Of a DNA stretch of 43,049 nt, positions 407 to 16,636 are shown piece by piece (positions within the stretch are counted from its first letter, which is position 1; each line of letters begins with the position of its first letter). Location: NCBI GenBank assembly GCA_947629535.1, contig CANREC010000006.1, positions 1 through 43,049 on the forward strand, read 5' to 3'. The position numbers and the translations under genes are program-made. The notes under the pieces are model-generated. The model ran no database searches. It worked only from the letters and a program-made list of their open reading frames with translations, and was not told where the DNA came from. Source of the stretch: an uncultured Clostridia bacterium. GTDB taxonomy: Bacteria; Bacillota; Clostridia; Christensenellales; Borkfalkiaceae.

Positions 407-412
407 GTCTTT

Positions 413-514: not shown

Positions 515-1237
515 TCACCCGACCTTCTTACCGATCAACTCAAAGGCGGAAAAGTCGGTCAAGTCGTAGCGGAGAGGGGAGACGGAGATATGTCCCGTCA
601 TGGTCGCGTCTGTGTCGAGCGAGAGGTCCCGCGTGCCCTCATACAGGCACTTGAGCCTCGGCTTGATCGTCCCGTCGGGCTGAAAATCAAACTCATCCGT
701 ATAGATCGCGGGGCCCATTTTGGTGAGCAGGATCTCATCCCCGCTTTCGGGAAAGTTGACGTTGAGGATGTCCGCAAAGTCAAACATGTGCTCGCGCTGT
801 ATTTTCTCATACACGCGTTCGATGTTCCTTGTCGCATTCTCAAAGGAGAGGAACGCGGCGGAGAAGGCGATGGACTTGACGCCGCAGATGGCGGCCTCAT
901 AGCAGGCCGCGACGGTGCCCGAGTAGTGGATATCCCCGCCGAGGTTGGGCCCGCAATTGATGCCCGAGATGACGAGGTCGAACTGTTTTTTCATGCCGAG
1001 AATGGCGACGCGGACGCAGTCGGCGGGGGTGGAATCGACGCTATAGGCCTCGATCCCCTCAAAAAGACCGCTCTTTTTGACTTCATAGCATTGGTGGATC
1101 TCGATGGAATGGCTCTTTGCGCTCTGTTGGACCTTGGGGGCGAACACAGTGACTTCGCCCTTTGTCCTCGCCCATTCCACGAGGAGTTTGAGCCCTTCGG
1201 CCTCGATGCCGTCGTCGTTTGTCAATAATATCTTCAT
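515..1237 (-). CDS. surE: 5'/3'-nucleotidase SurE
   Basis: This 240-residue protein is a SurE nucleotidase, which removes phosphate from nucleoside 5'- and 3'-monophosphates with a divalent metal. The N-terminal MKILLTNDDG holds the metal-binding Asp-Asp pair. SGIN-CGPN-LGGD and SGTVAACYEAA follow in the usual SurE order, and NVNFP lies in the C-terminal half. I place the start at ATG 1237, which overlaps the upstream stop as ATGA and has GAGG upstream. The TTG two codons earlier is less likely. The overlap indicates translational coupling to the DHH phosphoesterase, and the three genes form one nucleotide-hydrolysis operon. Length is typical of the family. Confidence 0.95.
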   Translation of the reverse strand: MKILLTNDDGIEAEGLKLLVEWARTKGEVTVFAPKVQQSAKSHSIEIHQCYEVKKSGLFEGIEAYSVDSTPADCVRVAILGMKKQFDLVISGINCGPNLGGDIHYSGTVAACYEAAICGVKSIAFSAAFLSFENATRNIERVYEKIQREHMFDFADILNVNFPESGDEILLTKMGPAIYTDEFDFQPDGTIKPRLKCLYEGTRDLSLDTDATMTGHISVSPLRYDLTDFSAFELIGKKVG

Positions 1238-2214
1238 AGCCAACCCTCGTGTGTGGATTTATATTCTTTGAGAAGGGCGTCGGCGTCCTCGATGCACCGC
1301 TGCATCTCCTCGACGGAAAAGACCGTCGCGCCCGCCGCCATGTTGTGCCCGCCGCCGTGATACTTGATGGCGAGGTCGTTGATGCCGAGGAATCTCGATC
1401 TGAGCCGCACGCGGATGTTGCCCTTTTCGACATTGTCGATGAACGCCACCCAGATGAGACTTCCGCGGATCTTGCTGAGGTCCCCGACGACGTCGCTCGC
1501 CGCCTCGAGCGAGAGCCCGAATTTCTCCTGCACGGCCCGATCCATATAGATATACGCGACGCCGTTTTCGGTGATGCGGATGTGGTCATAGACATACGAC
1601 TTGAGCCGCAGTTTTTGGATATCTTCCGTATAGAGATCGGCGAACAGCCTTTCATAGTCGACGCCGCAGTCGAGAAGGGCCCCCGCAAGGCGCATGGTCT
1701 CGCCCGTGACGCCTTCAAAGCGGAATCTCCCGCTGTCCGTCACCATGCCCATATAGATGAACGCGGCCGCCTCCGGGGTCATCTTGAGCCGATCTTTGAA
1801 CGTGACATAGAAGTCCGCGATCATCTCGCACGCCGACGAGCGGAAATCTTCCACCCAATTGATGTCGCCGTACGGGTCTGCCTCGATGTGATGGTCGATC
1901 TTGATCATCTCCTTTGCCTTGTCATAGTTGGCATTGGAGATGCGCTTGCGCGTTCCCGTATCGATGACGATGAGGAGCGCGTCCCTGTAAATTTCCTCCG
2001 AAACGTTGTCCTCTCCGCCGCAAAAGGCGAGATATTCCGAAAAATCGTCATCGCAGAGATAGATATTTTTCTCGGGATATGTATCGCGCAAAAGCTTGCA
2101 AAGGCCCTTCGTCGAACCCACCGCGTCACCGTCGGGACGGATGTGTCTTGAGATGATGATCGTGCTATAAGTCTCGATTTTTTGCAAGATCTTTGCCTTG
2201 ACGTCCTCGTTCAT
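1234..2214 (-). CDS. DHH-family phosphoesterase (NrnA-like), copy 2
   Basis: The 326-residue protein has the complete DHH/DHHA1 signature: HIRPDGDAVGS near residue 24, a DTG around residue 86, the DHH triad around residue 107, GMVTDSGRF in the middle, and the C-terminal DHHA1 motif GGGHNMAAGA. This is the architecture of NrnA-type enzymes, which degrade nanoRNAs and dephosphorylate 3'-phosphoadenosine 5'-phosphate. Whether this copy acts on nanoRNA, pAp or cyclic dinucleotide products (pGpG, pApA) cannot be read from sequence. It overlaps the upstream paralogue and downstream surE by ATGA at both ends, so all three are co-translated. It is a diverged tandem duplicate of the gene at 2211-3149. 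Confidence 0.92.
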   Translation of the reverse strand: MNEDVKAKILQKIETYSTIIISRHIRPDGDAVGSTKGLCKLLRDTYPEKNIYLCDDDFSEYLAFCGGEDNVSEEIYRDALLIVIDTGTRKRISNANYDKAKEMIKIDHHIEADPYGDINWVEDFRSSACEMIADFYVTFKDRLKMTPEAAAFIYMGMVTDSGRFRFEGVTGETMRLAGALLDCGVDYERLFADLYTEDIQKLRLKSYVYDHIRITENGVAYIYMDRAVQEKFGLSLEAASDVVGDLSKIRGSLIWVAFIDNVEKGNIRVRLRSRFLGINDLAIKYHGGGHNMAAGATVFSVEEMQRCIEDADALLKEYKSTHEGWL

Positions 2215-3149
2215 TCCGCACCTCCTGCCAAGAGATCCAGATCGCTCAAAAGCGCCATGGCCGTCTCTTTATCGGGCACGGTGCACCCGCTGGCCTTCTT
2301 GTGTCCGCCTCCGCCGTACTTGACGGCGATGGGGTTGATGTTGTAGCGGTTGGAGCGGATCTCGACGTGTACGCCGTCGTCCGCCTCGGTGAAATTCACC
2401 CAGACGAACACGCCCTTGATGTCGTGCATTAGGCTGACCATTCCCGAAGAGACCACGGGCGCCGCGTCGCTGTTTTCGGGCAAGTCCTCTTTGGCCGTGT
2501 AGATATAGGCGACGCTGTGCTCGGTGAATCTGATCTTGTGCATGTTGTCGGCCTTCTCGATGATCTTGGAAAAATCCTCGGCATAGAGGTCGTAGTAGAG
2601 ACGGTTGAGGTCGATGGGCTGGGAGAGAAGGAAGGCGGCAAGTTCGAACGTCCTCGCCGTGACGGAATCAAAGACGAATCTCCCGCTGTCCGTCACCATG
2701 CCCATGTAGAGATAGGTCGCAGAGTTTACGGAAAGCTTGAGTTTCATCTCCCTCGCGAACCATGCCACGAGCCCGCACGCGCTCTCGCACGAGCTCTCCA
2801 CGACGTCCACGTCGCAGATGTTCTCACAGTAGATGTGATGGTCAAAGCGTAGCGTTTTTTCGGCCGTCTTGTATCTCTCGTCGCAGATGAGGCGGGAAGA
2901 GCCGCAGTCAAGGACGATCGCAAGCGCACCGCGGTAGGTCTCGTCGGGGATCTCGTCCATCGGAATGTCGATGAAGGGGAGGCGCGTCGCGATATCGCCG
3001 ACCATATAGACCTTTTTCTCGGGGAAATTGTCCTTGATGAGAAAGTAGAGGCCGATCTGGCTGCCCATGGCGTCCCCGTCGGGATGCGCATGGCGATGAA
3101 TGACGATCGTATCGTACTTTTTGATGAGTTTGAATGCTTCTTTGAACAT
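2211..3149 (-). CDS. DHH-family phosphoesterase (NrnA-like), copy 1
   Basis: The first gene of the minus-strand operon encodes 312 residues with HRHAHPDGDAMGS near residue 18, DCG, DHH near residue 103, GMVTDSGRF, and the DHHA1 motif GGGHKKASG near the C-terminus. All metal ligands expected for a DHH phosphoesterase are present, so it should be active. The ATG at 3149 has GGGAG a few bases upstream and a consensus promoter at 3178-3206. It shares layout and many motif residues with the next gene, so the two are tandem paralogues that may have split their substrates. Its promoter is back-to-back with that of the HAD/guanylate-kinase fusion, which suggests coordinated control of nucleotide turnover. 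Confidence 0.92.
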   Translation of the reverse strand: MFKEAFKLIKKYDTIVIHRHAHPDGDAMGSQIGLYFLIKDNFPEKKVYMVGDIATRLPFIDIPMDEIPDETYRGALAIVLDCGSSRLICDERYKTAEKTLRFDHHIYCENICDVDVVESSCESACGLVAWFAREMKLKLSVNSATYLYMGMVTDSGRFVFDSVTARTFELAAFLLSQPIDLNRLYYDLYAEDFSKIIEKADNMHKIRFTEHSVAYIYTAKEDLPENSDAAPVVSSGMVSLMHDIKGVFVWVNFTEADDGVHVEIRSNRYNINPIAVKYGGGGHKKASGCTVPDKETAMALLSDLDLLAGGAE

Positions 3150-3177
3150 GTGTGTCTCCCTTTTGCTGAAGTTTTAT

Positions 3178-3206
3178 ATTATACCATATTCGGGGCCTTT
3201 TGTCAA
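3178..3206 (-). promoter_or_regulatory. Promoter of the DHH-DHH-surE operon
   Basis: On the minus strand TTGACA (3201-3206), a 17-base spacer and TATAAT (3178-3183) match the consensus exactly. The -35 box lies only nine bases from the -35 box of the divergent promoter at 3216-3244. Confidence 0.85.
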
Positions 3207-3215
3207 CCTTCGGGC

Positions 3216-3244
3216 TTGACAATTGCCCGATTTTCAAGTATAAT
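3216..3244 (+). promoter_or_regulatory. Promoter of the HAD/guanylate kinase fusion gene
   Basis: TTGACA at 3216-3221, 17 bases, and TATAAT at 3239-3244 match consensus. Transcription would start near 3251, which rules out upstream in-frame starts and fixes the start codon at 3275. Confidence 0.85.
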
Positions 3245-3274
3245 GTCATTTACGAAACATTGCGAGGAAAAGTT

Positions 3275-4381
3275 ATGAGAAAATACAGGATCCGTATCGG
3301 TCTCGACGTGGACGATACGCTCTATGAATGCAATTCCTATGCCGTAGACATCATCAATCGGCGTCACCCCGATGAGGAACCCATCCGCATCGAGGACATC
3401 AAGACGTGGGGCGGGGACGAACGCCACGGCGACGAGCGGATCGCCCTCTATTCGGACCCCGAGTTCGTGCGGACGCAGCCCATCACCCCGGGCGCACAGG
3501 AATTTGTCAGGAAACTTTCGGAGATCGGAGACGTATTCTTCATCACCGCCGTCCCCGCGCGCGTCATGAGCGCGAGAGCAGAGCGCCTTTTGCAGGATTT
3601 CCCCGAGATCCCTTCCCGAAATATCATGATGGGGACGAGAAAGGACGTCATTTCGCTCGACATCATGCTCGACGACGGCGCACACAACATATCGAGCTCC
3701 CGCGCCGCTTACCCCGTCCTGTTCCGCAAGCCGTGGAATTCCGACCTTTCGGGCCTGCTCTCCGTCAATAGCTACGATGACTTCCTGCATTTCTGCGAGA
3801 TGGTCAGAAATTCCTTTGCCGAGAAATTCCCCGACCTCAAGAACGGGGGCGTTCTGTGCCTCGTCGGCCCGTCGGGTTCCTCCAAGACGGAGATCGCGGG
3901 CGAGCTCACCAAATTGGAGAAATTTGAGAAACCGCTCACTTCCACCACCCGTCCGCGCAGAAAAACGGAGGGCGAGGAGGCCTACCGTTTCATCAGCGAG
4001 AAACAATTCCTTGACGAGATGCGTGCGGGCAGCTACTTTGAGACGACCGTCTACAGCGGCTACCACTTCGGCACTTCGGAAAAGGACATCGACAGCATCG
4101 TCAAACGGGGACATATCGCCGTCATCCCGATCGACATCTGCGGCGCGATCACCCTCAAGAATCTGTACAGGGAACGCGCGATGCTGGTGTTTACGCGGCG
4201 GGAGAGGGCGGACGCCATCAAGAGCATCATCGGCCGCGATATCGACATCGACGACAAGACCAGACGCATCATGTCTCTCGATTTCGAGTATCGGAACAGC
4301 GAGGTGTGCGACGTTGAAGTGAATGTCGGCGACGACGTTCTTCCCGCCGTCAAGGCCATCTTGGAAATGACGCTGCAGTGA
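3275..4381 (+). CDS. HAD 5'-nucleotidase-like / guanylate kinase-like fusion protein
   Basis: The 368-residue protein joins two nucleotide enzymes. The N-terminal half is a HAD phosphatase of the 5'(3')-deoxyribonucleotidase type: nucleophile motif DVDDTLY (Asp11, Asp13), FITAVPA as motif II, and IMLDDGAHN as the acidic motif IV. From about residue 190 a guanylate-kinase-like domain begins with the P-loop GPSGSSKT (198-205). It is followed by the GMP-binding stretch TSTTRPRRKTEGEEAYRF and a lid region with RRERADAI. The usual third Gly of the P-loop (GxGKS/T) is Ser here, so kinase activity is plausible but not certain. The ATG at 3275 follows GAGGAAA and lies just inside the mapped promoter. 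It may balance removal and addition of phosphate on (d)GMP. That role is inference. Confidence 0.88.
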   Translation: MRKYRIRIGLDVDDTLYECNSYAVDIINRRHPDEEPIRIEDIKTWGGDERHGDERIALYSDPEFVRTQPITPGAQEFVRKLSEIGDVFFITAVPARVMSARAERLLQDFPEIPSRNIMMGTRKDVISLDIMLDDGAHNISSSRAAYPVLFRKPWNSDLSGLLSVNSYDDFLHFCEMVRNSFAEKFPDLKNGGVLCLVGPSGSSKTEIAGELTKLEKFEKPLTSTTRPRRKTEGEEAYRFISEKQFLDEMRAGSYFETTVYSGYHFGTSEKDIDSIVKRGHIAVIPIDICGAITLKNLYRERAMLVFTRRERADAIKSIIGRDIDIDDKTRRIMSLDFEYRNSEVCDVEVNVGDDVLPAVKAILEMTLQ

Positions 4382-4405
4382 TCCTCCGCATCCGCAAGAA
4401 GCAAT

Positions 4406-4433
4406 AAAAGACGAGCCTCGGCTCGTCTTTTTT
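4406..4433 (+). terminator. Rho-independent terminator after the fusion gene
   Basis: A perfect 12-base-pair stem (AAAAGACGAGCC, 4406-4417, with GGCTCGTCTTTT, 4420-4431) has a two-base apex and ends in a T run. It separates the fusion gene from the next operon. Confidence 0.9.
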
Positions 4434-4518
4434 ATAAAGAGACATTGACAATATATTAAAAGATCCGACAGAAGATACTTTTATCGGTCTGACCGTATCC
4501 CAAACAGGCGTAATATCC

Positions 4519-4547
4519 TTGACAAATTTTGTCGAAATATATATAAT
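4519..4547 (+). promoter_or_regulatory. Promoter and operator-like palindrome of the Hsp70-like operon
   Basis: TTGACA (4519-4524), a 17-base spacer and TATAAT (4542-4547) form a consensus promoter. The -35 and spacer are overlaid by the perfect palindrome GACAAA-T-TTTGTC (4521-4533). A second palindrome, CGGTC-T-GACCG (4485-4495), lies upstream. These are plausible repressor sites, but no regulator is identified. Confidence 0.75.
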
Positions 4548-4622
4548 AGAAACGATAACATTTTTTAACTTATTTTGTCCCTCTTCCAAGGGACGGACGC
4601 ACTTTTCGGCACATCGATATCC

Positions 4623-5156
4623 ATGAAAATTTCCAAGTTTTTAGAAAAATTCGGCAACAGTTCGCTACGGCTTGATCCCATGACCGCTCCGCTCTATGAA
4701 CGGACCTATCCGCTGCTCGCCGCGGCCCTGTCCGACCTTCCCGAAAAGACGGAGATCCCCGCGCTCGACGAGAAGTGTTTGACCAAGCTTGACGACGCTG
4801 CAGGGGCCCGTGACCGTGAGAAGGTGGGGGAGTTTCTGAAGGACATGCTCGACGCCGCCAGACTGTGGAGCGTCGAATGCGGCAACCAGTCCGACGGGCA
4901 AGCACAGGGCGCCATGCGCCGCACGCTCATCGGCAGGATCGACGTCATCCTGTCATCGGATCTCCCGGACGGCGTTAAAACTGCCTTGAAGGCCGCGCGG
5001 GAGAGCTTGCAGTCCATGTTTTTGCCGCGGAACGGGGCGCCCGTCCGCACGCTCTTTCTGAACTGCATGCGCTGTCTGGACCGCGTGGGAGCGGGCGACG
5101 GCGAAGCGGCGGAAGAGTTCTGCAAATCGATCCGACAATGGAGGGAAATGTCTTGA
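4623..5156 (+). CDS. Unrecognised helical protein, first gene of Hsp70-like operon
   Basis: I do not recognise this 177-residue protein. It appears soluble and mostly alpha-helical, with alternating charged and Leu/Ala residues, no signal peptide and no membrane span. It has a small cluster with two cysteines (NCMRCLDR) near residue 155. The start at ATG 4623 (MKISKFLEKF) is the more protein-like choice, but its ribosome site is weak. A TTG at 4575 in the same frame is the alternative. The gene lies about 70 bases after the operon promoter. It ends in a TTGA overlap with the next gene, so it is translationally coupled to it. Its place at the head of the operon suggests a regulator or adaptor, but nothing in the sequence decides this. 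Confidence 0.7.
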   Translation: MKISKFLEKFGNSSLRLDPMTAPLYERTYPLLAAALSDLPEKTEIPALDEKCLTKLDDAAGARDREKVGEFLKDMLDAARLWSVECGNQSDGQAQGAMRRTLIGRIDVILSSDLPDGVKTALKAARESLQSMFLPRNGAPVRTLFLNCMRCLDRVGAGDGEAAEEFCKSIRQWREMS

Positions 5157-5830
5157 TAAATAATATCGATTTTACAAGGTTTCGGAGCAGCTTTCTCCTA
5201 GCCCGCGTCAACGTGTCCTTGAATTATCTGCTATCCAATAACGTCAGCGATATCCGTGTACCCGACGGCTATGACGTCTATTGGCTCGACGGCATGGATT
5301 ACGAAAAGTGGGACAAGGAAAAGAAATTTACGGACATTGTCTCCATGGATAAGAAGAATAAGGCGAGGAATATCGAATTTTTGTGTGTGCGGAGAAAGTT
5401 CGACGTCGAAGTCCCCTTCGGTTTTCGGTTCCGTGAAAAATGGAGAGTGTCGGGCAGCTGCACATGCTCATTGGACGCCGAAAAGCTCCTTTATGACTTT
5501 GTGCCGAAGAGCTGGACGCTGTGTTCGTCGGACGGGCTGAATTTCGAGTTCCTCTCCGAATACTACGTCGACCCCGACGATCTCACGGCGCCCCAAAAGG
5601 GACTGTCGATCGAACTTCGCGAAAAGATCCTTCCTCTCCTCGTGGATGAATTGGAAAGTGAAGTTTTGGACGAAAATGCCTTAGGAGAGCGGGTAAGATC
5701 CGCATTCGCCGCCATCTGCTCCAAAACTGAATTTCCGAGGGCAATTACGATCGGCCATGTGCCCAAAAATTTGCGTGTGAAGGCCGCCGCACAGGAGAGC
5801 ACGGCCGCACAGGAGGGCGCAGATGATTAA
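5153..5830 (+). CDS. Unrecognised protein, possibly SPFH/band-7-like
   Basis: The product has 225 residues. I favour the TTG start at 5153, which overlaps the previous stop as TTGA and has a perfect GGAGGG seven bases upstream. The in-frame ATG at 5138 has no ribosome site. The N-terminal half is beta-rich (VPDGYDVYWLDG, then EFLCVRRKFDVEVPFGFRF). The second half is helical and ends in a low-complexity AAAQESTAAQEG tail. The order of a strand domain containing VPFG, a conserved K/R-rich strand, and a long helix is reminiscent of SPFH/band-7 proteins. No decisive motif is present, so this is a weak structural guess. There is no membrane span. It overlaps the next gene by eight bases. Confidence 0.72.
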   Translation: MINNIDFTRFRSSFLLARVNVSLNYLLSNNVSDIRVPDGYDVYWLDGMDYEKWDKEKKFTDIVSMDKKNKARNIEFLCVRRKFDVEVPFGFRFREKWRVSGSCTCSLDAEKLLYDFVPKSWTLCSSDGLNFEFLSEYYVDPDDLTAPQKGLSIELREKILPLLVDELESEVLDENALGERVRSAFAAICSKTEFPRAITIGHVPKNLRVKAAAQESTAAQEGADD

Positions 5831-8438
5831 CTTGATCAATGGCCTGATCGGCGCCGCGATGGGTGTCTTATCCGCATTCCGGGACCATGACGATCCGGAT
5901 GAAGGTATTTTCAAGAAGTGTTTTGGAACATTTCTCGAAACATACACAGAGTTTATGGGAGACGCTCTGCAGACTTTCATCAGGGACGTCAAGTACCGCA
6001 GGGACAAAAATGTCGCCCTCAAAGAGGCGATCAAGATCCTGCGGAAGAAAAATATCGACGAGGCGACGTACAGAGGGATCCTTGATGACATAAAAAATGC
6101 CACGACCGAATCAAGCCCGCGCATCGAAACGCTCATCGGGAAGATCAAGGAACGCGTCTCCAAGCTCTTCGTCAAAGAGGAGAAACGCGACGCAAGGATC
6201 CTCTGCGACATCTATGACGAGATCCTGTTCTATTTCGACTATTCCGAATATCTGTGCGAGGTGTCTCCCCAAAGATACGCGCAACTCGATGAAGAGACGC
6301 GGAAAGCCTTCGATACCCTTCTTCAGCAGACGATCGAGGCTTATGTGCGGAGCGTGTTCAACAGAAGTCTCGAGGATAACGAGAAACTTCAAGCAACGGT
6401 CATCGTCACATCGCTGAAGAATTTCCTGACCGACGAACGGTTCATCGGGCAGTTTTCCAAAGGGATCAAAAAAGAGCTCGGCGAGCGGCTCACCAATGAG
6501 ATCGGCGACCACATCATCGAAAAACTTCTCACTTATTGTTCGGTTTCGAACGGCGGAAAGCTTGAGCTCAAGGAGATCGCCCTGTCGCGCTATGCGCCCA
6601 AATACATCCTTTCCGAGTGCCCCATATGCGGGTACTATGGGGAGAGGATCTATACGAACGAGAAGAACGCGACGACCTACTGCGCCGCCTGCGGGAGACG
6701 CTATTCGGTCGAACAGTATTCCGAGCCCGAACTTTTTGCCAAAATGGACCAGATGTTCGAGTCGAACAACAGTGCGCTCGAAGCCCTGCGCGAGCTTCTG
6801 AAAATGTATCAACAAGAGGGTCAGACTTCCGCGCAAGAGATCCTGAATAAGATCATTGATCTTGGCGACACAGTCATCGAAAGTAACGCCGAGCGCTCTG
6901 CGGAAGAATTGGCGCAGTTCGAAGAGCTCCGTTCGGAACTCAAAAAGGGTCTGGAAGGCTGCGTCGCCCAACAGCACCTCGAGAGCTTGCTCCATGCACA
7001 GGAGGACAACTTCGCCGATCTGAAGGAAAGCCTCATGAAACAAGCCGCTTCCGCCGACCGTTTCAATCCCGCCATGCTCGGCATGATGAAGGAAACGATC
7101 GATCAGCTCGTCAAGGTCAGCCAAAAGGCGGACAAGCAGAGCGCAGACGTTCAGAGCATTCTGGATTCTCTCAAGGGTATCAACGATCAAAACAGATCCT
7201 ACTATGAGAGATTGAGCCAAAAGACGGAGGACATCGGCGCACAGGTCAACCAGATCCTCGAATACGAGAGAAAGGTCTTTCCCGAGATGAACGAGCAGAT
7301 GTCTACGCTCTTGGAGTACGCCCAAAAAGCCGTCACGAAGGAATCTGTGGAAGAGATGACGTCCGCTCTCGGCGGGGACGTCAAAAAGGCGATCGCCGAC
7401 GCGGGGAGAACACTTTCCGCCATCACAGAATCGAGCATGGCGCAGATCATGTCTCAGATAGACAGTATCAATGCCAAAGGACTTTCGTCGGAAGGCCTCA
7501 GCCGCATGATCAAGGACGGTGGAACGCATCTCAGCGGGCAGATCAACGGCATGCAGCGCATTTTGCGCGAACATACGGAAAACAGCAAAGAGAACTTCCG
7601 CATCATCATCTCCATGCTGGAAGACCAGCGCGTCAGCCTCATGGCGTCCGTCGGGCTTCAGATGGGGCAGGAAGAATTCAAGAAGATATATCAAGGGAAG
7701 ATCCCGAGCATGTATCTCTATGACGAGGGCCTCGGGGGAGCGTTTGCCTGTCCCTACTGCGGCGCAACCGAGCCTCGCACGCTGAACGAGGACCAATATT
7801 GCCGCTGTAATGTGTGCGGGAACAAATTCCTCGGCGTCAACCCTTCTATTTCGGGTCTGAAGATCCCCAAAGGCGAGGACATCTGGACATTCCTGCATAA
7901 GAATTTCGGCAAGCCCCGCGACGATGTGCTCTACGCCACGGACGAAAGGGTCAAAAAATGGCGTGCCGCTCACACGGCAACGATGACAGTAAGGTCGTCT
8001 AAAAAGGCCGTCGATTTCTTCGATTCATTCAAGATCGAATTTCCCTCCGCGTGGCCGCAGGATGGGTTACTGATATTGCCGGAGCTCGCGATACGTGGAA
8101 ATGCAGCCATAAAATGTACGACGATCAACCAATTGACTGTCTTTGATACAGAGACGGCATCGAAGATAAAGACCTTGATCTTCTCGGATGATTCATCAGT
8201 CGCATTTATCGGTATGGTCAGATCCGGGAATTCGAACAAATCGATCAAAAGCGATCCGTTTGCCGACTTTCCCAATATATCCACAGTCGTGATCTGCGGG
8301 AAAAATAAGAAAATTGAATTAGGAGACAGCGCTTTGGAAAACTTCAGAAAAAATCTCGGATGGGGCAACAAGCTCTACGGCGTCAATGCCGAGGACAGGA
8401 AAAACTTCTGGGAATATAAAAACGGAGAAAAAACATGA
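5823..8438 (+). CDS. Large coiled-coil protein with two zinc ribbons
   Basis: The 871-residue protein is not one I can name. It starts with a short hydrophobic stretch (INGLIGAAMGVLSAF) that could dock on a membrane. The first zinc ribbon has Cys266/Cys269 (CPIC) and Cys287/Cys290 (CAAC). Residues 300-600 are a long coiled coil with heptad Leu/Ile and Gln/Glu/Lys richness. A second zinc ribbon follows: CPYC at 643-646 and CNVC at 662-665. The C-terminal 170 residues are beta-rich, with short repeats such as IKTLIF and ISTVVICG that resemble leucine-rich-repeat strands. Stop and next start overlap as ATGA. A scaffold that positions the Hsp70-like ATPase or its clients would fit. That role is inference. 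Confidence 0.85.
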   Translation: MINLINGLIGAAMGVLSAFRDHDDPDEGIFKKCFGTFLETYTEFMGDALQTFIRDVKYRRDKNVALKEAIKILRKKNIDEATYRGILDDIKNATTESSPRIETLIGKIKERVSKLFVKEEKRDARILCDIYDEILFYFDYSEYLCEVSPQRYAQLDEETRKAFDTLLQQTIEAYVRSVFNRSLEDNEKLQATVIVTSLKNFLTDERFIGQFSKGIKKELGERLTNEIGDHIIEKLLTYCSVSNGGKLELKEIALSRYAPKYILSECPICGYYGERIYTNEKNATTYCAACGRRYSVEQYSEPELFAKMDQMFESNNSALEALRELLKMYQQEGQTSAQEILNKIIDLGDTVIESNAERSAEELAQFEELRSELKKGLEGCVAQQHLESLLHAQEDNFADLKESLMKQAASADRFNPAMLGMMKETIDQLVKVSQKADKQSADVQSILDSLKGINDQNRSYYERLSQKTEDIGAQVNQILEYERKVFPEMNEQMSTLLEYAQKAVTKESVEEMTSALGGDVKKAIADAGRTLSAITESSMAQIMSQIDSINAKGLSSEGLSRMIKDGGTHLSGQINGMQRILREHTENSKENFRIIISMLEDQRVSLMASVGLQMGQEEFKKIYQGKIPSMYLYDEGLGGAFACPYCGATEPRTLNEDQYCRCNVCGNKFLGVNPSISGLKIPKGEDIWTFLHKNFGKPRDDVLYATDERVKKWRAAHTATMTVRSSKKAVDFFDSFKIEFPSAWPQDGLLILPELAIRGNAAIKCTTINQLTVFDTETASKIKTLIFSDDSSVAFIGMVRSGNSNKSIKSDPFADFPNISTVVICGKNKKIELGDSALENFRKNLGWGNKLYGVNAEDRKNFWEYKNGEKT

Positions 8439-10021
8439 TCGCATTATTGGCAGACGAGGCGGGAAGATCATCGGCAGGCCAATGGATCACCATCGCCGTG
8501 ATCATGATCGTAACAGTGGCAGTGACAGTATTGGAGCTTTTCAAAGCGAGAAAAAACGGAGGAATCGATATGAGTAAACGAACGAAGGACAAACAGAATA
8601 AAAAAGACAAACAGAATAAAAAAGCAGAATCTGCAGAAAAAAACAAAGCGCCCACGCACGAGGGCGTGGCGTCGGAAAATACCACGAAGATGCCTGCCCA
8701 AAAGGCGCCTGCCCAAAAGGCGCCCTCCCCTTCGGAAGAGGAAAAACCGCGGATCCCCTTCGACCCCTATAAAGGCGGTCCTCGTAAGCAATTTCCGGTG
8801 ACAGAGCCCCAGGAGAGTGTAGCGCCTTCCGGACCCGAGGGCCATGACGATGCGGCGACGGAGAAGATGTCTTCCTTGCGCCCTGTTTCCGTCGAGACGG
8901 ACGAGGAGATGGTAGAGGTAGAGGAGCCCGAAACTGCGCAAGAGGAAGTCTCCGACCTCAAGCAAAATGCGTTCGTGTCCGTGCAGGAAACGCCTGATCC
9001 CGTTCAAGAAACGACGGACACAGCGCAGGAGGAAGCTCCCAAGCAGGAGGAAACTTCCAAACAAGAGGAAGCTCCCAAAAAGGAGAAAACTCCCAAACAG
9101 AAGAAAGCTCCCAAGCAAGAGAAGGCTCCCAAGCAGGAGAAGGCTCCCAAGCAGGAGGAAATTCCCGAACAAGAGGAAACACCCAAGCAGAAGGAAAAAC
9201 CCCAAAAGCCTATCGACAAAATATGGTGCAGAAAGGCGCTCAGAACTCGTGCGCACGAGCTTGAGGACGAAAACAGTAAACTACTGGACGAGCTCGAAGA
9301 GTTGAAAAGTCTCCTCGGGCTGAGAGAAGAAAAGCTTACCGAGGAGAAGGCCCGTTACAGTGATCTCGCTGCCCGTAATGAGGAATTGCAGCGGGACAAA
9401 GATTCTCTCCAAGTAGAGAACGGGCGGCTCATGAAAGAAAAAGAGGAGCAGGCCAGATCCGCACAAGAGGACAAAGAGAAACAAAACAGCGACTGGAAAA
9501 AACAGCGCGATGACCTTTTCAAGGAAAAAGAGAAATACAAAAATCAATGCGATGCCGATAATGAGAGCGAAAATAGAACCGTCAGATCCATGCAAGCGTT
9601 CCTCAAGGAGTGGAACGACGTATGCGCGGCGCTCAAGATCGACGCCGCAGTGAATACGCCCTGTACCACAGGGGATGACGTCGGCCGCATCCTCGCAAAC
9701 GAAGCCAAGAATGCGCTCGGTCCTCTGAAAACATTCTGCAAAGCGCAAGAGATCTTGCAACAGAAGTTGGATGAAGTCTCCTCGCAAATGAGTAGGCATG
9801 TCGAACTTTCCGCTCAGTCCGATTCCGACGATTATAAGACGTGGTGGCATCGGGTCGGGAATGAGTGCTATGCTTTTTTGGGGAATTTGCGTGATGATCT
9901 GAACTATCATGCCTTGATCCCCGACATCGAGCTGCATGAAAAAAATTATTTTGAGATAAAAGAAAAAATCGATGCATTCTTGGACAATATCATGAGGGAA
10001 GCATCAAACAGGAGAGGGTAA
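8435..10021 (+). CDS. Coiled-coil protein with optional membrane anchor and PKQE repeats
   Basis: The frame encodes 528 residues from ATG 8435, which overlaps the previous stop as ATGA. Residues 16-37 (WITIAVIMIVTVAVTV...) form one transmembrane helix. An in-frame ATG at 8570 has a much better ribosome site (GGAGG at 8558-8562, seven bases away) and would give a 483-residue soluble form. A disordered, charged linker follows, including a tandem repeat of the type APKQEK encoded by 18-base units at about 9029-9200. Residues 270-370 are coiled coil. The C-terminal 150 residues are helical. A long helix followed by a small helical domain, directly before an Hsp70-like gene, recalls GrpE-type nucleotide-exchange partners, but I see no GrpE motif. 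Confidence 0.82.
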   Translation: MIALLADEAGRSSAGQWITIAVIMIVTVAVTVLELFKARKNGGIDMSKRTKDKQNKKDKQNKKAESAEKNKAPTHEGVASENTTKMPAQKAPAQKAPSPSEEEKPRIPFDPYKGGPRKQFPVTEPQESVAPSGPEGHDDAATEKMSSLRPVSVETDEEMVEVEEPETAQEEVSDLKQNAFVSVQETPDPVQETTDTAQEEAPKQEETSKQEEAPKKEKTPKQKKAPKQEKAPKQEKAPKQEEIPEQEETPKQKEKPQKPIDKIWCRKALRTRAHELEDENSKLLDELEELKSLLGLREEKLTEEKARYSDLAARNEELQRDKDSLQVENGRLMKEKEEQARSAQEDKEKQNSDWKKQRDDLFKEKEKYKNQCDADNESENRTVRSMQAFLKEWNDVCAALKIDAAVNTPCTTGDDVGRILANEAKNALGPLKTFCKAQEILQQKLDEVSSQMSRHVELSAQSDSDDYKTWWHRVGNECYAFLGNLRDDLNYHALIPDIELHEKNYFEIKEKIDAFLDNIMREASNRRG

Positions 10022-10022
10022 G

Positions 10023-12002
10023 ATGGGTAGAATTCAAATTGGTATCGATTTTGGTAGTACATACACCTATGTGTATATGATGGAGACAGGATCCAACTCT
10101 CTTCAGCGTGTCGGAGAACAGGTGCTGTATGAAAATCAAGCGGGGATCCCTACAAAAATCGGGAAATACACAGATTCGGACGGGTCATTAAGGACATCGA
10201 TCGGCATGATGGCGCAGTACCGTTTCTTGAACGATAAGTTGACCCGTGCTTCTCAGCATACCTTTGAGAGACGCAATCTCAAGCGGTCTTTAAGAGAAGA
10301 GTACTCGTTGGAAAATCCTACGGGAGAGCAAGAAAGGCAATTCCAAACGGATAAAGAGGACATCACTGAATTTTTCAGACAGATCTTTCATGGGACAGAT
10401 GAGAATTTCCGAGGAAGGATCGACGAAGTGGAGAAGATCGTCTTCGGATGTCCCGCGCCGACGCCCGAGGACGCGGGAGACGAGTCCGAGGACCAGGGCG
10501 TGACGGATGAACTCTCCTATTCGGCACAATTGAAAGAGATATTGCAAGAGATCTTTCCGAATTTATCAAGTGACGCCATTATTCCGTATCCCGAGCCCGT
10601 CTTGGCGGGCTTTGCGATCATCCGTTCGCAGCTTTCGGAAGGGCCTTTCCCCGACGGCACCTATCTGTTTGTCGACTTGGGCGGCAGCACAAATGACTAT
10701 ACGATCCTTTCCGTAAAGGGCGGGGAACTGGAAAACAACAAGCCCCTCTACCACAGCACACAGGGGGGGATGGGCCCCTCCGGGTCATGGTACGATTCCA
10801 AAATGACGGACGCTGTTCCCGGCCTCACGAAATATATGGCCCAGAGAGCCAAGGAAAAGATATTCGCATCCGCCAAAAGAGACCCCACCTTCGATGACGT
10901 CGGCAATGCAATGGCCGAGATGCCTGACGGGCATCAAAAACAAGTGAAATTCCGCTATAAGAGGGAACCAGGCAGGATAGAACCTCCCGAAGATCAGGAT
11001 TGCATTTGTTGCTATTTGTGCGACGATTGTGAATTTGAAAAGTTGTATGATCAAACTGCCAGACGGGCCGCAAGGGTAGTGGAAACTGCCTTTGAGGCTA
11101 ATCCCGAGATCGTCCTCGACCGAGTGTATTTTGTCGGAGGCTCTGCGCGGATGCGTCCCCTGCGGAAACGCATCATGGATAAAATCAAAGAAACATGCGG
11201 CGATAAGCTCAGAGACGGCTCCTGTGATTATATCGGAGAGTACGGCGACAGCGCGGACGCCGTGATGGGACAGGAAAGAGAGCCGCTGACTTGCTCCAAC
11301 ATCGTCGCCTACGGCGCAGTCCTCATGGCACATGAGGGAATAGTCATTGCCCCCGATCCATTGGAGGGGATCCGATGTGCCTTTGGCAGCAAAAACGAAA
11401 ACATAATTTTTAAGGTATCTACCGAACCGCTTTCGGGCCAATTGACAGGCAAGCCTGAACATCAGATCGCTTATTTCGGAGTTAAGCATGAAAGCACGTC
11501 TGACGAACGAGATGAAAAAGGTCGCAGAACGATCAAAATATCTGTAAGCAATACCCAGAAACCGAAAAATAATCAAAAACCGGTTACTGTTTCCTACAAA
11601 CGACGTCCACAAAGTATTCCGTTTTGGATAATAGCACGTCATGGAGGCGATGATTTTCGCTATCCGAAACATGGCACCTATCAATTCCCCATTAGCGGTC
11701 TGGAATTTGTTGGGAATAAAAAGAACATCCTGAGGATCTTCTTGCTATATACGGTAGAGAGGGATTTCTATGTTCTGTTGCTTCCAAATGCCAAGAAGGG
11801 ACTTTCCGAGTATCCTAAAAATTATAGCAACACGGAACTCATAGATAACATCGATCTAAAGAACGCTCGAATTTATTCTTTACAAATGGATACACCGGAA
11901 AATGGAGAAGGCGGTAGAAAATTCACATCTAACGCAAAAAACAATTCGGATGAAATGAAACTTATCAAAGAATTCATTGATAAATGTGGGACGAAAAAAT
12001 AA
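10023..12002 (+). CDS. Hsp70/DnaK-like ATPase with Cys cluster and divergent C-terminus
   Basis: This 659-residue protein has the actin/Hsp70 ATPase core: phosphate-1 loop IGIDFGSTYTYV at residues 6-17, phosphate-2 loop FVDLGGSTNDYTI at 216-228, and adenosine loop VYFVGGSARMRPL at 368-380. It is not the housekeeping DnaK. The region after residue 450 is a beta-rich domain without the DnaK substrate-binding signature or C-terminal lid. The ATPase half also carries an inserted cluster CICCYLCDDC (327-336), which could bind metal. Its start lies one base after the preceding stop. The last third is visibly richer in A+T than the ATPase half. I infer a specialised chaperone-like or assembly ATPase served by its operon partners. 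Confidence 0.88.
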   Translation: MGRIQIGIDFGSTYTYVYMMETGSNSLQRVGEQVLYENQAGIPTKIGKYTDSDGSLRTSIGMMAQYRFLNDKLTRASQHTFERRNLKRSLREEYSLENPTGEQERQFQTDKEDITEFFRQIFHGTDENFRGRIDEVEKIVFGCPAPTPEDAGDESEDQGVTDELSYSAQLKEILQEIFPNLSSDAIIPYPEPVLAGFAIIRSQLSEGPFPDGTYLFVDLGGSTNDYTILSVKGGELENNKPLYHSTQGGMGPSGSWYDSKMTDAVPGLTKYMAQRAKEKIFASAKRDPTFDDVGNAMAEMPDGHQKQVKFRYKREPGRIEPPEDQDCICCYLCDDCEFEKLYDQTARRAARVVETAFEANPEIVLDRVYFVGGSARMRPLRKRIMDKIKETCGDKLRDGSCDYIGEYGDSADAVMGQEREPLTCSNIVAYGAVLMAHEGIVIAPDPLEGIRCAFGSKNENIIFKVSTEPLSGQLTGKPEHQIAYFGVKHESTSDERDEKGRRTIKISVSNTQKPKNNQKPVTVSYKRRPQSIPFWIIARHGGDDFRYPKHGTYQFPISGLEFVGNKKNILRIFLLYTVERDFYVLLLPNAKKGLSEYPKNYSNTELIDNIDLKNARIYSLQMDTPENGEGGRKFTSNAKNNSDEMKLIKEFIDKCGTKK

Positions 12003-12018
12003 GGGGAGGAAAAAAATA

Positions 12019-13344
12019 ATGAGTGGATTGCAATTTTCTGATTTTGATTCGGACGATTTCGATGAAATTGAGGAAATGGACGAAGAAACGAAACAGCCCG
12101 AGTCTTCGGGTAGGGAAAAAATGGATTTTGAGGATTTTTCGGATAACGAGACACCCCAAACCGACTTGAGCCCCATTTTAACCATGCTCGGCGAGCTCAA
12201 AGTGCTCGTGGAGGGCATGTCGGCGAGCAAAAACGAGGCAGATCTTGCGCCGCTCACACAGCAGCTTAACGATTTGCAGAAGAATGTCACTAGCGTCGCC
12301 GCCGCAATGGGGAAAAACGGCCCCGTCGGGAGCCTATCGGGCAAATTTGATTCCCTCGAAAGATCTTTCAAAGATGTCGCCGATGCCGTCGGTGACCAAA
12401 ACGGGGAGATGGCGCTGAAATTCGACGGAGCCATCAAATATTTTGATAAGTCTTTTCAAACCGCGAACCAAAATTTGGAGAATTTGACCAAGACTGTCGA
12501 GTACAATAAAAAGGCCACGGACGGAACGTTGGGGCAAACAAAGCAGGACATTTCTACGAAGTTCGAGGAGACCTACATCAATTTCAAGAATGAACTTTCA
12601 GACGGTCTGGAAAAGCTCCGCAGCTCGATCGAAAAGGCGTCTCAAGAACAGACTAGGTCCGCAGGGGAGCGGGAAGGGGATCTTCAAAAGAAGATCGTCG
12701 AGTGGACGGCCAAGCTCGGCATATTGACCCAAGACGTCGCTTTATTCAAGAACATATTGGCCCAAGGCCTCGGCGCGATCGAGACCAAAGTCGCGCAAAA
12801 GGTCGAAAGCACGCTGAAAACCGTCGTCCCGCAAACGATCAAAAACGACGAGATCGCCCAAAAAGTTTCCGCAGCCGTCAAGTCGACCGTCTCGCAGGAG
12901 CTTCAAACGGCCGTTTCCGCGAACTTCAAGGCGCTCAGCGATCAGATGGAGACAATGTCGCGTTCGGTCAGTGCGGCTTTGGAGGAGATCGGAAACGTCA
13001 AGGAAAAACTCGAAACGGAGATCGTCCCCCGAACGGAAAAAGCACAGCGAAAAAACAGGGAGAACACAGTCTACCTGCTTTCAACGCTGATTTTTGCAAT
13101 GGTCAGCGGACTGAACATCTTCCTCTTGATCATGGGACAGCCCGCCATGCTTACGGACCTTCGCCAGCTCTACCTTGCGGCGTTCAGTTTCGTCGCCATC
13201 TCCGTGGCAAGCGTCATTCTCTTCGGCTTCGTCAAGGCCATGGATGTGAGCCCGGAAGAGAAGAAACACTACGGCTATTACATCATCACGGCTCTTCTTT
13301 CAGCCACAGCATTTGTGCTCGCCATGGTCGCCTGCTGGGCTTAA
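12019..13344 (+). CDS. Coiled-coil protein with C-terminal membrane domain, last gene of Hsp70-like operon
   Basis: The start is ATG 12019 behind AGGGGAGG. An upstream in-frame ATG at 11977 lies inside the Hsp70-like gene and has no ribosome site. The 441-residue product begins with an acidic disordered segment (SDFDSDDFDEIEEMDEE). About 280 residues of coiled coil with methyl-accepting-like Ala/Ser/Gln composition follow, and then three hydrophobic helices at about 352-374, 384-408 and 420-439. It would sit in the membrane with a long cytoplasmic rod. I do not recognise a family. It may anchor the soluble parts of the operon's complex to the membrane, together with the long form of the 8435 gene. 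No terminator hairpin directly follows. Confidence 0.83.
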   Translation: MSGLQFSDFDSDDFDEIEEMDEETKQPESSGREKMDFEDFSDNETPQTDLSPILTMLGELKVLVEGMSASKNEADLAPLTQQLNDLQKNVTSVAAAMGKNGPVGSLSGKFDSLERSFKDVADAVGDQNGEMALKFDGAIKYFDKSFQTANQNLENLTKTVEYNKKATDGTLGQTKQDISTKFEETYINFKNELSDGLEKLRSSIEKASQEQTRSAGEREGDLQKKIVEWTAKLGILTQDVALFKNILAQGLGAIETKVAQKVESTLKTVVPQTIKNDEIAQKVSAAVKSTVSQELQTAVSANFKALSDQMETMSRSVSAALEEIGNVKEKLETEIVPRTEKAQRKNRENTVYLLSTLIFAMVSGLNIFLLIMGQPAMLTDLRQLYLAAFSFVAISVASVILFGFVKAMDVSPEEKKHYGYYIITALLSATAFVLAMVACWA

Positions 13345-13667
13345 GCGCGGAAGGGCAGGGGATAGAGCGCACAGGCGTCGGGATCCGTATATGTCCGTAA
13401 AAAATACTGCCCGTCGTCCATGGCAACGATGTAAATGGAGATGTCGCTCTGCCGCCTGCAAGAGCTTTGGATATCGATCTGAACGGTCTGGACGCTCCCG
13501 TCTGCATGTTTGCAATACACAAACACGTTGACGCTCCCCGTTATCTCAAAGATGCGGAAACAGTGCCCTTCAGTCTCTTCTCTGTTGCGGAAATCCTGTT
13601 CGCGGATGACGGGCAGTGCGATCTCCATCGGGTACCCGTTCCAAATCGTGATAAGTCCTATCTGCAT
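13341..13667 (-). CDS. Small protein of unknown function
   Basis: A minus-strand frame of 108 residues starts at ATG 13667 with AAGAGGT just upstream. It ends convergently, overlapping the stop region of the Hsp70-like operon by four bases. The product looks like a small soluble beta-rich protein (ITIWNGYP, VNVFVYCKHADGS, IYIVAMDDGQYFL) with four cysteines. Its composition is natural, unlike the competing plus-strand frames. I do not recognise it. No clear promoter is visible upstream, though a perfect short palindrome (AATAAC-A-GTTATT, 13711-13723) lies about 45 bases before the start. Confidence 0.5.
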   Translation of the reverse strand: MQIGLITIWNGYPMEIALPVIREQDFRNREETEGHCFRIFEITGSVNVFVYCKHADGSVQTVQIDIQSSCRRQSDISIYIVAMDDGQYFLRTYTDPDACALYPLPFRA

Positions 13668-13763
13668 ACATACCTCTTACAGCAAGATGTTACACGATGG
13701 GGAAACAAAAAATAACAGTTATTGTGTCATAAATTGTATTTTATGAAGGGATCTTTCCCGCCT

Positions 13764-13790
13764 GCGGGCCGTACTCGGCCCGCATTTTTC
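13764..13790 (+). terminator. Terminator-like hairpin
   Basis: GCGGGCCG (13764-13771) pairs with CGGCCCGC (13776-13783) around a four-base loop and is followed by ATTTTTC. It could end read-through from the Hsp70-like operon. Confidence 0.6.
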
Positions 13791-13791
13791 T

Positions 13792-13818
13792 ATGAAAAGA
13801 CCCTCGCGTTTGCGAGGG
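13792..13818 (-). terminator. Terminator of the YiiX-like gene
   Basis: CCCTCGC (13801-13807) and GCGAGGG (13812-13818) form a seven-pair stem with loop GTTT. On the minus strand it is followed by TCTTTTC. It lies 35 bases after the stop of the 13853-14725 gene. Confidence 0.75.
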
Positions 13819-14868: not shown

Positions 14869-15168
14869 ATGTGTAATTCCTGTAACAACAACCTTGCAAG
14901 CATCTTGAACAACCTGTTTGGAAACGGCTGCGGCTGTAACAACAACGGCAACGGAAACGGCTGCGGCTGTAACGGCGGTTGGAACAACTTTTCCAACGGT
15001 TTCGTGAGCGGCGTCAATGCCGTGAACGCCGCCAACGGCCGCGGCTGCGGATGCAATAACAACGGCTGCGGCTGCAACAACGGTTTCGACCAGTACTACG
15101 CACAGCAGTACGCGCTCGGCCCCTATGCGCAGAACAACGGCTGCGGTTGCTGCAACTCGACATTCTGA
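14869..15168 (+). CDS. Cys/Gly/Asn-rich small protein
   Basis: The 99-residue product has very biased composition: 16 cysteines, mostly in repeated GCGC or NGCGCN units, and long Asn/Gly runs. A middle segment (WNNFSNGFVSGVNAVNAANG) and a tail with DQYYAQQYALGPYAQ separate the Cys blocks. It has no signal peptide or enzyme motif. The ATG at 14869 has AAAAGGGG upstream, and a strong terminator follows the gene, so it is a real transcription unit. Comparable Cys/Gly/Asn-rich proteins occur in spore coats and in metal-binding or cross-linked surface layers of Firmicutes. That assignment is inference. No peptide-modifying enzyme is adjacent, which argues against a RiPP precursor. Confidence 0.8.
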   Translation: MCNSCNNNLASILNNLFGNGCGCNNNGNGNGCGCNGGWNNFSNGFVSGVNAVNAANGRGCGCNNNGCGCNNGFDQYYAQQYALGPYAQNNGCGCCNSTF

Positions 15169-15564: not shown

Positions 15565-16608
15565 ATGGCAGAAGAAAACGTCAAGAAAAAATTCACTTTC
15601 ACAAAACCGACCAAGCGGCAGGTCGAGAAGTTCCTTCTGAATCTTCTCTTCATCGTCCTCGGGAATGCGATCACGGCGGCGGGCGCTGCGTTCTTCATCG
15701 TCCCCAACGGCTTTGCCATGGGCGGCACGACGGGCCTCGGCATCTTCGTGAAGAACATGCTCAAAAACTTTACCTCGGTGGGGGAGCAATGGACGGAATG
15801 GGCGGTCCAGATCACCGTCTACACTGCCAATATCGCGCTCTTCCTTCTCGGGACCGTTCTGCTCGGCAAGAAATTTGCGGTCGCGACGGGTGCGGGGACC
15901 TTCCTCTATCCCACATTCCTTACAATATATCAACCCCTGCAGACGGCCTATAAGGAGACGTACGGCTACAACATGGGGGCGGGGGGAGACCTCGGCAGCC
16001 CGCTTCTTGCGATGCTCTGCGGCGCGCTCCTCTTCGGGCTCGGCGTCGGCCTCGTCCTTCGCGTGGGGGCGAGCACGGGCGGCACGGACATTCCGCCCCT
16101 CATTCTGAAGAAGTTCTTCAACACGCCCGTCTCCGTCTCGATGTGGTGCATCGACTTCAGCATCGTCGCGCTCAACCTCATCGCCGCGCCCCTCGAATCC
16201 GTCCTGTACGGCGCCATCATCACGCTCGTCTCCTCGGTCGTCGTCGGCAAGATCTCGCCCATCGGCATGAAACGCATTCAAGTCAAGATCATCTCCATGC
16301 ACTATAAAGAGATCAGGGACATGATCATTCTGAAGGTCAGCCGCGGCGTCACCGTGCTCTACGGCCAGACGGGTTATCTGAAACAGCCCTGCCACATGAT
16401 CCTCACCGTCATCTCATCCCGACAGCTCGTCAGACTGAAGTCGGAAGTCCAGAAGATCGACCCCAATGCCTTTATGACGATCAGTACCGTCTCCGAAGTG
16501 CGGGGGAAGGGATTCCACACCGAAGGCGTCGAATTTTTGATGCCGCAGGAGAAGGAAGTCCCGCCGCAGATGGTCAGCGACGAAACGGACGACGGACAAA
16601 GCGAATAA
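15565..16608 (+). CDS. YitT family membrane protein (DUF161 + DUF2179)
   Basis: The 347-residue protein has an N-terminal membrane domain of about six hydrophobic helices (for example LLFIVLGNAITAAGAAFFIVP and LGTVLLGKKFAVATGAGTFL). Its loop GFAMGGTTGLG is repeated later as RVGASTGGTDI. A soluble C-terminal DUF2179 domain follows (IISMHYKEIRDMI, GVTVLYGQTGY, DPNAFMTISTVSEVRGKGF). This is the standard YitT family layout, whose transported substrate is not established. The start is ATG 15565 (MAEENVKKK). Earlier in-frame codons overlap the promoter. There is no convincing ribosome site, and the promoter places the mRNA 5' end at the start codon, so translation is probably leaderless. Confidence 0.9.
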   Translation: MAEENVKKKFTFTKPTKRQVEKFLLNLLFIVLGNAITAAGAAFFIVPNGFAMGGTTGLGIFVKNMLKNFTSVGEQWTEWAVQITVYTANIALFLLGTVLLGKKFAVATGAGTFLYPTFLTIYQPLQTAYKETYGYNMGAGGDLGSPLLAMLCGALLFGLGVGLVLRVGASTGGTDIPPLILKKFFNTPVSVSMWCIDFSIVALNLIAAPLESVLYGAIITLVSSVVVGKISPIGMKRIQVKIISMHYKEIRDMIILKVSRGVTVLYGQTGYLKQPCHMILTVISSRQLVRLKSEVQKIDPNAFMTISTVSEVRGKGFHTEGVEFLMPQEKEVPPQMVSDETDDGQSE

Positions 16609-16615
16609 CTCTCAG

Positions 16616-16636
16616 CCGCCCCCGGGCGGTTTTTTT
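16616..16636 (+). terminator. Terminator of the YitT gene
   Basis: CCGCCC (16616-16621) and GGGCGG (16624-16629) form a short GC stem followed by seven Ts, seven bases after the stop codon. Confidence 0.8.

Follow-up and report, generated by a model that had tools for sequence, protein, structure and literature searches.

The window analysed here, a 43,049-nucleotide stretch of contig CANREC010000006.1 (assembly GCA_947629535.1) from an uncultured Clostridia bacterium, carries seven genes centred on a diverged Hsp70-type ATPase. With a probability that we put at about even, these genes represent one half, membrane-bound and driven by Hsp70, of a conflict system that is split in two, was acquired horizontally and acts most likely against phages. 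Support for this reading comes from genomic context, namely gene content, order and conservation, hydrophobic segments, nucleotide-binding motifs, a module of AAA+ ATPase, protease and TIR genes elsewhere in the same genome, linkage of such modules to Hsp70 genes in six other genomes, co-occurrence and a variable site, all read from sequence. The defence role is predicted from the TIR and protease genes and from the context of the site. No description of the gene set was found in the literature searched, which was largely open-access. Genomes carry G handles and loci L handles: the window's genome is G000, an assembly of 138 contigs with the operon on contig C6, and the related locus L003 lies in genome G548. 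The features of the block are as follows (aa, amino acids; percentages are identities).

4519 to 4547, plus strand: sigma-70 promoter, TTGACA-17-TATAAT, 12 of 12 consensus positions, core kept in L003
4623 to 5156, plus strand: P1, 177 aa, without a library family; 47% to L003
5138 to 5830, plus strand: P2, 230 aa, possible TTG start at 5153, predicted SPFH-like fold; 46% to L003
5823 to 8438, plus strand: P3, 871 aa, putative scaffold with two zinc ribbons and a coiled coil; 56% to L003
8435 to 10021, plus strand: P4, 528 aa, coiled-coil protein with an N-terminal hydrophobic segment at residues 18-36; 36% to L003
10023 to 12002, plus strand: P5, 659 aa, diverged Hsp70-type ATPase (PF00012); 48% to L003
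12019 to 13344, plus strand: P6, coiled coil and three C-terminal hydrophobic segments; 31% to L003
13341 to 13667, minus strand: P7, 108 aa, convergent seventh gene; 70% to L003 and 36% to L008

The open reading frames (ORFs) of P1 to P6 all lie where a sequence-only reading of the window had placed them, and the single consensus promoter proposed there is confirmed by the exact match at 4519-4547, which overlaps GACAAATTTTGTC, a near-palindrome. Two further promoter-like sites occur in 4380-13800, each with 9 consensus matches; since the three observed sites fall below the shuffle mean of 6.3, weight is placed on the exactness and conservation of the promoter and not on the number of sites. 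The tight packing described earlier also holds: P1 and P2 join at TTGA (5153-5156), provided that P2 starts at TTG, and P3 and P4 at ATGA (8435-8438), while the P4/P5 gap is 1 base and the P5/P6 gap 16 bases if P6, whose ORF opens at 11977, starts at the ATG at 12019. In addition, P2 and P3 overlap by 8 bases. The same six genes in the same order in L003 indicate that P1 to P6 are real, so that the proposed six-gene set stands, although it missed P7, the best conserved of the seven. The stop of P7 overlaps that of P6, and the two genes converge in the window, L003 and L008. Upstream of P7 (13670-13740), AATTTATGACA and TCGTGTAA blocks are shared with L003, and no standard promoter was recognised in this interval.

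P1 to P6 were scanned against Pfam, PADLOC, NCBIfam and PHROGs, and P7 against Pfam and PADLOC. P5 alone scores above a curated cut-off. Weak matches to coiled-coil or zinc-ribbon families are seen for P3 and P6, and no match for P1 and P2 in the four libraries or for P7 in its two, in keeping with the earlier statement that the set matches no named system. By sequence criteria, P5 is a member of the Hsp70 superfamily, matching PF00012 over residues 214-386 (21.0 bits, cut-off 20.6) and keeping, in alignment with DnaK-like proteins, the phosphate-1 (D9-F-G-S), phosphate-2 (D218-L-G-G-S-T) and adenosine (V371-G-G-S) motifs. It shares these nucleotide-binding motifs with DnaK and HscA, but fails as a DnaK-type protein on two counts: the interdomain linker (DVTPL) was not seen in the alignment, and the score against NCBIfam DnaK TIGR02350 is 12.4 (cut-off 822.55). 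Furthermore, none of the six operon proteins matches GrpE or DnaJ in Pfam or NCBIfam. The unseen linker and the restriction of the Pfam match to residues 214-386 fit the earlier suggestion of a C-terminal domain differing from that of DnaK; the structure model of P5 (predicted local distance difference test, pLDDT, 37.5) is unusable.

The structure model of P2, of moderate confidence, has best matches that include prohibitin, HflK/C, flotillin and stomatin, and also a vault protein that we take to be of SPFH type; this supports an earlier hint of SPFH likeness, and P2 is predicted to resemble SPFH proteins. P3 consists of an N-terminal domain, a first zinc ribbon (C266/C269...C287/C290), a coiled coil, a second zinc ribbon (C643/C646...C662/C665) and a C-terminal domain, each ribbon being formed by one pair of CxxC motifs. 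Hydropathy gives a single N-terminal segment in P4 and three C-terminal ones in P6. The P4 segment is also present in L003, L008 and L047, and so is not "optional" as had been supposed, whereas the overall picture, in which an Hsp70-type ATPase is accompanied by a zinc-ribbon/coiled-coil protein and by two others that carry membrane segments, agrees with motifs and hydropathy. Such a composition would also suit an accessory envelope-stress or membrane-quality-control machine, in which SPFH-like P2, the zinc-ribbon scaffold and the Hsp70 police membrane proteins and have no anti-invader role, with a logic like that of SPFH/PspA-type systems. The likeness of the P2 model to prohibitin and its kin, the hydrophobic anchors and the ClpP or ClpB-FtsH-like genes that adjoin relatives of the operon favour this explanation; because it is at odds with the sporadic distribution, the variable site and the linkage of relatives to TIR, trypsin and leucine-rich repeat (LRR) genes, which are also present in G000, we regard it as unlikely, although as an alternative of some weight.

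The distribution of the operon is narrow. P5 was searched in one genome per species across 84,980 species by exact short peptide patterns, which can therefore detect close relatives only, and the single relative recovered was L003, from a metagenome-assembled genome labelled uncultured Clostridia. The seven-gene block is common to both loci and the flanking genes differ by eye, an ORF upstream of the L003 operon being presumably an IS30-type transposase fragment; by this comparison, the operon is conserved as a unit with different flanks. Within the window's family, neither P5 (150 other sampled genomes) nor P3 (150 sampled genomes) was found, and a universal housekeeping role was rejected because of the absence of P5 there. 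P5 as a single sequence also matched 0 of 397 others in a phylum sample, which is weak evidence of absence since a single sequence misses diverged members. Searches of 300 genomes of the family of L003 gave four matches, three of them true (G548 itself, G771 and G729); the fourth, in G680 (E 8.3e-4), was dropped since its coordinates fall inside an unrelated ORF, which we read as PyrR-like. A four-row Hsp70 profile matched 237 of 347 order genomes at 1e-6, those listed being mostly partial matches in DnaK-sized ORFs, and only G000, G987 and G908 stand clear of DnaK (E 2.3e-22 or better). The other matches were left uncounted, and the Hsp70s of G1003, G1063 and G965 were recognised only by their position beside a marker protein, b, described below.

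More distant loci retain parts of the operon. The P3-P4-Hsp70-P6 layout is found in L008 and L047 and, in a diverged form, in L009; the C-terminal part of P3 is recognised in L008, L009 and weakly L047, and its N-terminal part in L070. In L069, the P3 C-terminal profile additionally hits a protein with LRRs (0.0064, compared with 0.4 for the best shuffled sequence). In the window, G+C content is 0.47-0.53 in the operon bins versus 0.54-0.61 in the rest, with bin 18001-19500 (0.49) as the sole exception outside the operon. Overall, the operon is apparently rare and horizontally acquired. Searches with P5 alone gave no match among plasmids, phages or viral contigs, and profiles A1, A2 and A10 likewise none among viral contigs; the Hsp70 of L008 gave two weak plasmid matches (2e-3) and that of L009 none. 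The block might instead belong to a mobile-element or conjugation-associated apparatus and serve to build or control a membrane structure that transfers DNA or protein. In favour of this, L047 has genes for a TraG/VirD4-type ATPase and ClpP downstream, and L067 and L072 carry homologs of them. However, neither gene occurs in the window operon or beside that of L003, the proteins scanned, which covered part of each locus, included no relaxase, and P5, P3 and marker b have 0 matches in 72,556 plasmid records, making this explanation quite unlikely.

The site of the operon is variable. The gene 5' of the operon encodes an NT5C (5'-nucleotidase)/guanylate-kinase fusion (3275-4378, plus strand), full-length orthologs of which, with 79-89% identity, occur in 28 of 60 other genomes of the genus, with one further partial. 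In the six ortholog-bearing sister genomes that were fetched, DNA similarity to the window ends at 4335-4366, the end of the fusion gene, and the sequence beyond differs from the window in all six. One of them, G1188 (locus L096, span 1-9297), carries at this site DuOB, coiled-coil, Hsp70, UvrD helicase and DrmA-like genes, a candidate defence operon in which the DuOB protein matches PADLOC PDC-M45A (2.5e-23), the DrmA-like protein, its gene cut by the end of the stretch, matches PADLOC DrmA (1e-65), and the Hsp70 (PF00012, 1.6e-36) differs from that of the window. L098 and L099 share other genes at the site, read as ordinary. Conserved gene order and variable neighbours, both named as checks in the sequence-only reading, are thus seen, the former in L003 and the latter among the sisters, of which one in six holds the candidate defence operon. 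The functions proposed there (assembly, stress or defence) are narrowed towards conflict or defence by context alone.

What that reading also missed is the probable AAA+/protease/TIR half of a larger system, on another contig of G000, C10, where the genes run in the order a, b, AAA, trypsin, LRR membrane protein, second LRR membrane protein, RuvB, TM237 and TIR, up to the contig end.

Contig C10, L049 2 to 8207 and L057 2 to 5999: the module, including coil protein a, two BspA-LRR membrane proteins and a TIR-MORN protein

Pfam matches above cut-off comprise AAA (125 bits), Trypsin_2 (69), RuvB_N (62), RuvB_C (57) and LRR_5, as well as PF13676 (TIR_2, 31.6 bits, cut-off 28) followed by MORN repeats, while the RuvB-like protein matches bpMoxR below cut-off (22.7 versus 27 bits). 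The label "Vps4-like" for the AAA protein is our own assumption, and so are "HTH" and "DUF", given to two proteins of the module that match nothing in Pfam.

An Hsp70 gene is joined to a b-AAA-RuvB-type module in six other genomes (G729, G908, G987, G1003, G1063 and G965). In G987 (L047), one strand carries, in the window's order, a coiled-coil protein with zinc ribbons, a coiled coil anchored at its N-terminus, an Hsp70 and a coiled coil anchored at its C-terminus. Upstream of them, the same strand encodes protein b, AAA+, a trypsin-like protease, a protein with FtsK-gamma, LRR and a sub-cut-off TIR match, a membrane LRR protein and a RuvB-like AAA+; the zinc-ribbon protein weakly resembles the C-terminal part of P3 (full-sequence E 4.2e-5, best domain 0.0014, best shuffled 0.4). 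In G729, a single strand carries a, b, AAA, trypsin, RuvB, a P3-like protein, a protein in the P4 position, Hsp70, two transmembrane (TM) proteins, H and D (small proteins without a Pfam match) and a ClpB/FtsH fusion. The order in G965 (L070) is b, AAA, RuvB, a P2-like protein, a 126 aa protein, a P3-like protein, a 294 aa protein and Hsp70, with no trypsin gene seen; here the similarity of the P3-like protein to P3 covers the N-terminal part and the first zinc ribbon (hhalign E 1.2e-15), and the P2-like protein, one small gene away, has E 9.4e-5 at a probability of 59%. G1003 and G1063 join a b-AAA-trypsin-RuvB module to Hsp70, and G908 places Hsp70 upstream of a-b-AAA-trypsin and a TIR gene, RuvB not being seen on its contig. 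The TIR of L048 scores 34.2 bits. Weak relatives of P1, P2 and P7 also lie inside b-AAA modules: the N-terminal part of P1 resembles the module proteins TM237/TM261 (hhalign E 1.6e-5, probability 79%, control family A10 0.3%), a P2 relative is found in L070 by profile search (2.5e-4, best shuffled 0.18), and L104 has a divergent P7 homolog (E 1.5e-7, against 0.99 for the best shuffled match) next to b-AAA-trypsin-RuvB.

Several observations concern the modules themselves. A ClpB-like AAA, FtsH-like AAA and M41 peptidase fusion lies beside modules in L008 (712-3558, minus strand), where it was assigned by Pfam, and in L009 (12507-15383) and L103 (2334-5438, minus strand), where it was assigned by profile. 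The RuvB profile matches the L103 protease (15700-16707, minus strand) at 5e-5 and the trypsin profile matches the RuvB-like protein of L104 (4423-6099) at 1e-6; these cross-matches suggest that the trypsin-like and RuvB-like proteins share an N-terminal helical domain, perhaps an assembly adaptor. A TIR-like domain and BspA-type LRRs occur in one protein in L103 (6820-9888, minus strand), L072 (6500-9754) and L047 (3-2114), with TIR scores under the Pfam cut-off.

The co-occurrence of the two modules was assessed with protein b as marker (profile A10, built from G000, G908 and G729) and with 74 of the 150 family genomes as controls. Marker b is present in 5 of 6 genomes with the Hsp70 module versus 0 of 74 family genomes without one (one-sided p 2.5e-7), or 2 of 3 versus 0 of 74 (p 0.001) when the three profile-building genomes are removed. 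Across 347 order genomes, the 10 clear positives comprise all 3 strong Hsp70 genomes and 7 of 344 others (p 1.7e-5); without G000 and G908 only G987 is left (p 0.023). All these p values overstate independence, because the compared genomes are related. Among 161 genomes of the family of G548, the four matches are G548, G671, G685 and one weak row. The rows of G092, from the order genomes, and of G640 were dropped, since the match (E 6.9e-4) spans 46 positions of the model in a frame of 593 residues; having the same coordinates, the two are probably one genome, which would place the families of G548 and of the window together.

The Hsp70 operon and the AAA+/TIR module might instead be independent accessory systems that co-occur through common gene exchange, as their location on different contigs in G000 and G548, the frequent occurrence of the AAA+ module without a recognised Hsp70, and counts drawn from one order or one family would allow. 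In G548, a-b-AAA-trypsin-LRR lies on contig C8 and the operon on C2, more than 74 kb from either end, so the two loci are truly apart; in G000 their distance is not measurable because the operon lies 4.5 kb from the start of C6 and the module is cut by the end of C10. Same-strand runs nevertheless join both modules in G729, G987, G1003, G1063 and G965, and with the weak homologs of P1, P2 and P7 inside such modules they render independence quite unlikely, with a probability close to that given to the conjugation-associated apparatus.

The interpretation of the block as half of a conflict system has to be weighed against several findings. In G000 the operon and the module lie on different contigs. 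In G865, G852, G1053, G671 and G685, the stretches fetched contain the module but no Hsp70 that was recognised, so that the Hsp70 half is optional to it; conversely, G771 has the Hsp70 half without marker b, on a contig that ends inside P3, and G1162 was left out of judgement as its contig ends. The genes beside Hsp70 in G908, G1003 and G1063 match no P3, P4 or P6 profile, and the neighbours checked in G1003 and G1063 show no zinc-ribbon pairs and no hydrophobic segments like those of P4 or P6. The G965 protein in the P4 position (294 aa) has no hydrophobic segment either, and the sequence that follows Hsp70 there is not P6-like. The putative equivalence of P4 between the window and L047 follows from position and layout, and that of P6 nearly so: the P4 profile does not match the P4-position proteins of other loci (E 0.37), P6 matches other loci only weakly (6.7e-5), and its best match outside the window and L003 (0.0037) is close to that of the best shuffled ORF (0.006). 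The window's right flank was not found in the six sister stretches (2.9 to 9.4 kb past the fusion gene), so that they do not show a clean empty site. Finally, no PADLOC family names the operon.

Comparison with known systems points to a likeness in logic. GTPase-centric conflict systems associate HSP70 or tubulin with DO-GTPase/GAP1 (Kaur et al. 2020, PMC7159879), and in the part of that account available, HSP70 belongs to a set of several genes, partly membrane-bound, that includes zinc ribbons and has TIR among its effectors, as in the loci studied here. A DO-GTPase2-like protein also lies beside b-AAA-RuvB in L071 of G1053 (26.7 bits, just under the cut-off of 27). However, none of the six operon proteins matches DO-GTPase or GAP1 in Pfam or NCBIfam, which sets the operon outside these systems, and it differs from them, as far as that part of the description goes, in its SPFH-like protein, two-ribbon scaffold and TM coiled coils. 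The MoxR-vWA-FtsH ternary systems, again from the available part of PMC7159879, resemble the present loci in AAA+ chaperone logic and FtsH-type proteins, the latter paralleled by the ClpB/FtsH/M41 fusion of the relatives, but the six operon proteins have an Hsp70 in place of any MoxR-vWA match in Pfam, and the operon is not one of them. By analogy, then, the operon may be likened to the NTP (nucleoside triphosphate)-driven chaperone conflict systems of this type, while belonging to none of those compared.

IetAS combines an AAA ATPase with a subtilisin-like protease. The AAA of L009, a relative of the C10 AAA, matches PADLOC IetA models over its AAA domain and is followed by a serine protease gene; however, the protease is trypsin-like and not a subtilase in G000, G548, G729 and G908, many more genes are present, and the window operon has neither IetA nor IetS, and thus is not an IetAS system. 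The PADLOC candidate PDC-M61B weakly matches the Hsp70s of L008, L009, L047 and L096 over part of the protein, but neither P5 nor the Hsp70 of L048. Among PADLOC-named defence systems, P1 to P6 give weak partial matches at most (e.g., ZorA, E 2.9e-4 or worse), none over most of a profile, and P7 gives none. Outside the operon, the window also contains an ORF of about 100 codons at 14869-15168 (plus strand) that reads as very rich in Cys, Gly and Asn, with CGCNNN repeats.

If the seven genes do form half of a conflict system, the proteins might assemble, sense an attack, communicate with the second module and take part in defence as follows. P4, by its N-terminal anchor, and P6, by its C-terminal anchors, would tether coiled coils at the membrane, where SPFH-like P2 and the scaffold P3 would build a platform. 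Through ATP binding and hydrolysis, P5 would hold the assembly off, or remodel it once an invader or membrane damage is sensed, and the second module, elsewhere in the genome, would execute the signal through its AAA+ ATPases, of which there are two kinds, one of them RuvB-like, together with its trypsin-like protease, its LRR membrane proteins and its TIR-domain protein. The more specific proposal of an undescribed bacterial immune machine over two loci, in which an SPFH/zinc-ribbon/Hsp70 membrane platform licenses a separate AAA+/RuvB-like/protease/LRR-membrane/TIR-repeat executor, is speculative and rather unlikely to hold in full; by analogy, such a bacterial arrangement would resemble signalling by LRR-TIR receptors, with a switch for assembly that is driven by ATP.

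Protein b offers a marker for locating the AAA+/TIR module in other genomes. If true, the conflict-system reading would extend the bacterial conflict systems driven by NTP to a membrane-bound type with Hsp70 at its centre, and one that is split over two loci and therefore invisible to searches of adjacent genes alone. It would also mean that an Hsp70-type ATPase tied to TIR and LRR proteins may serve as an assembly switch instead of a general chaperone.

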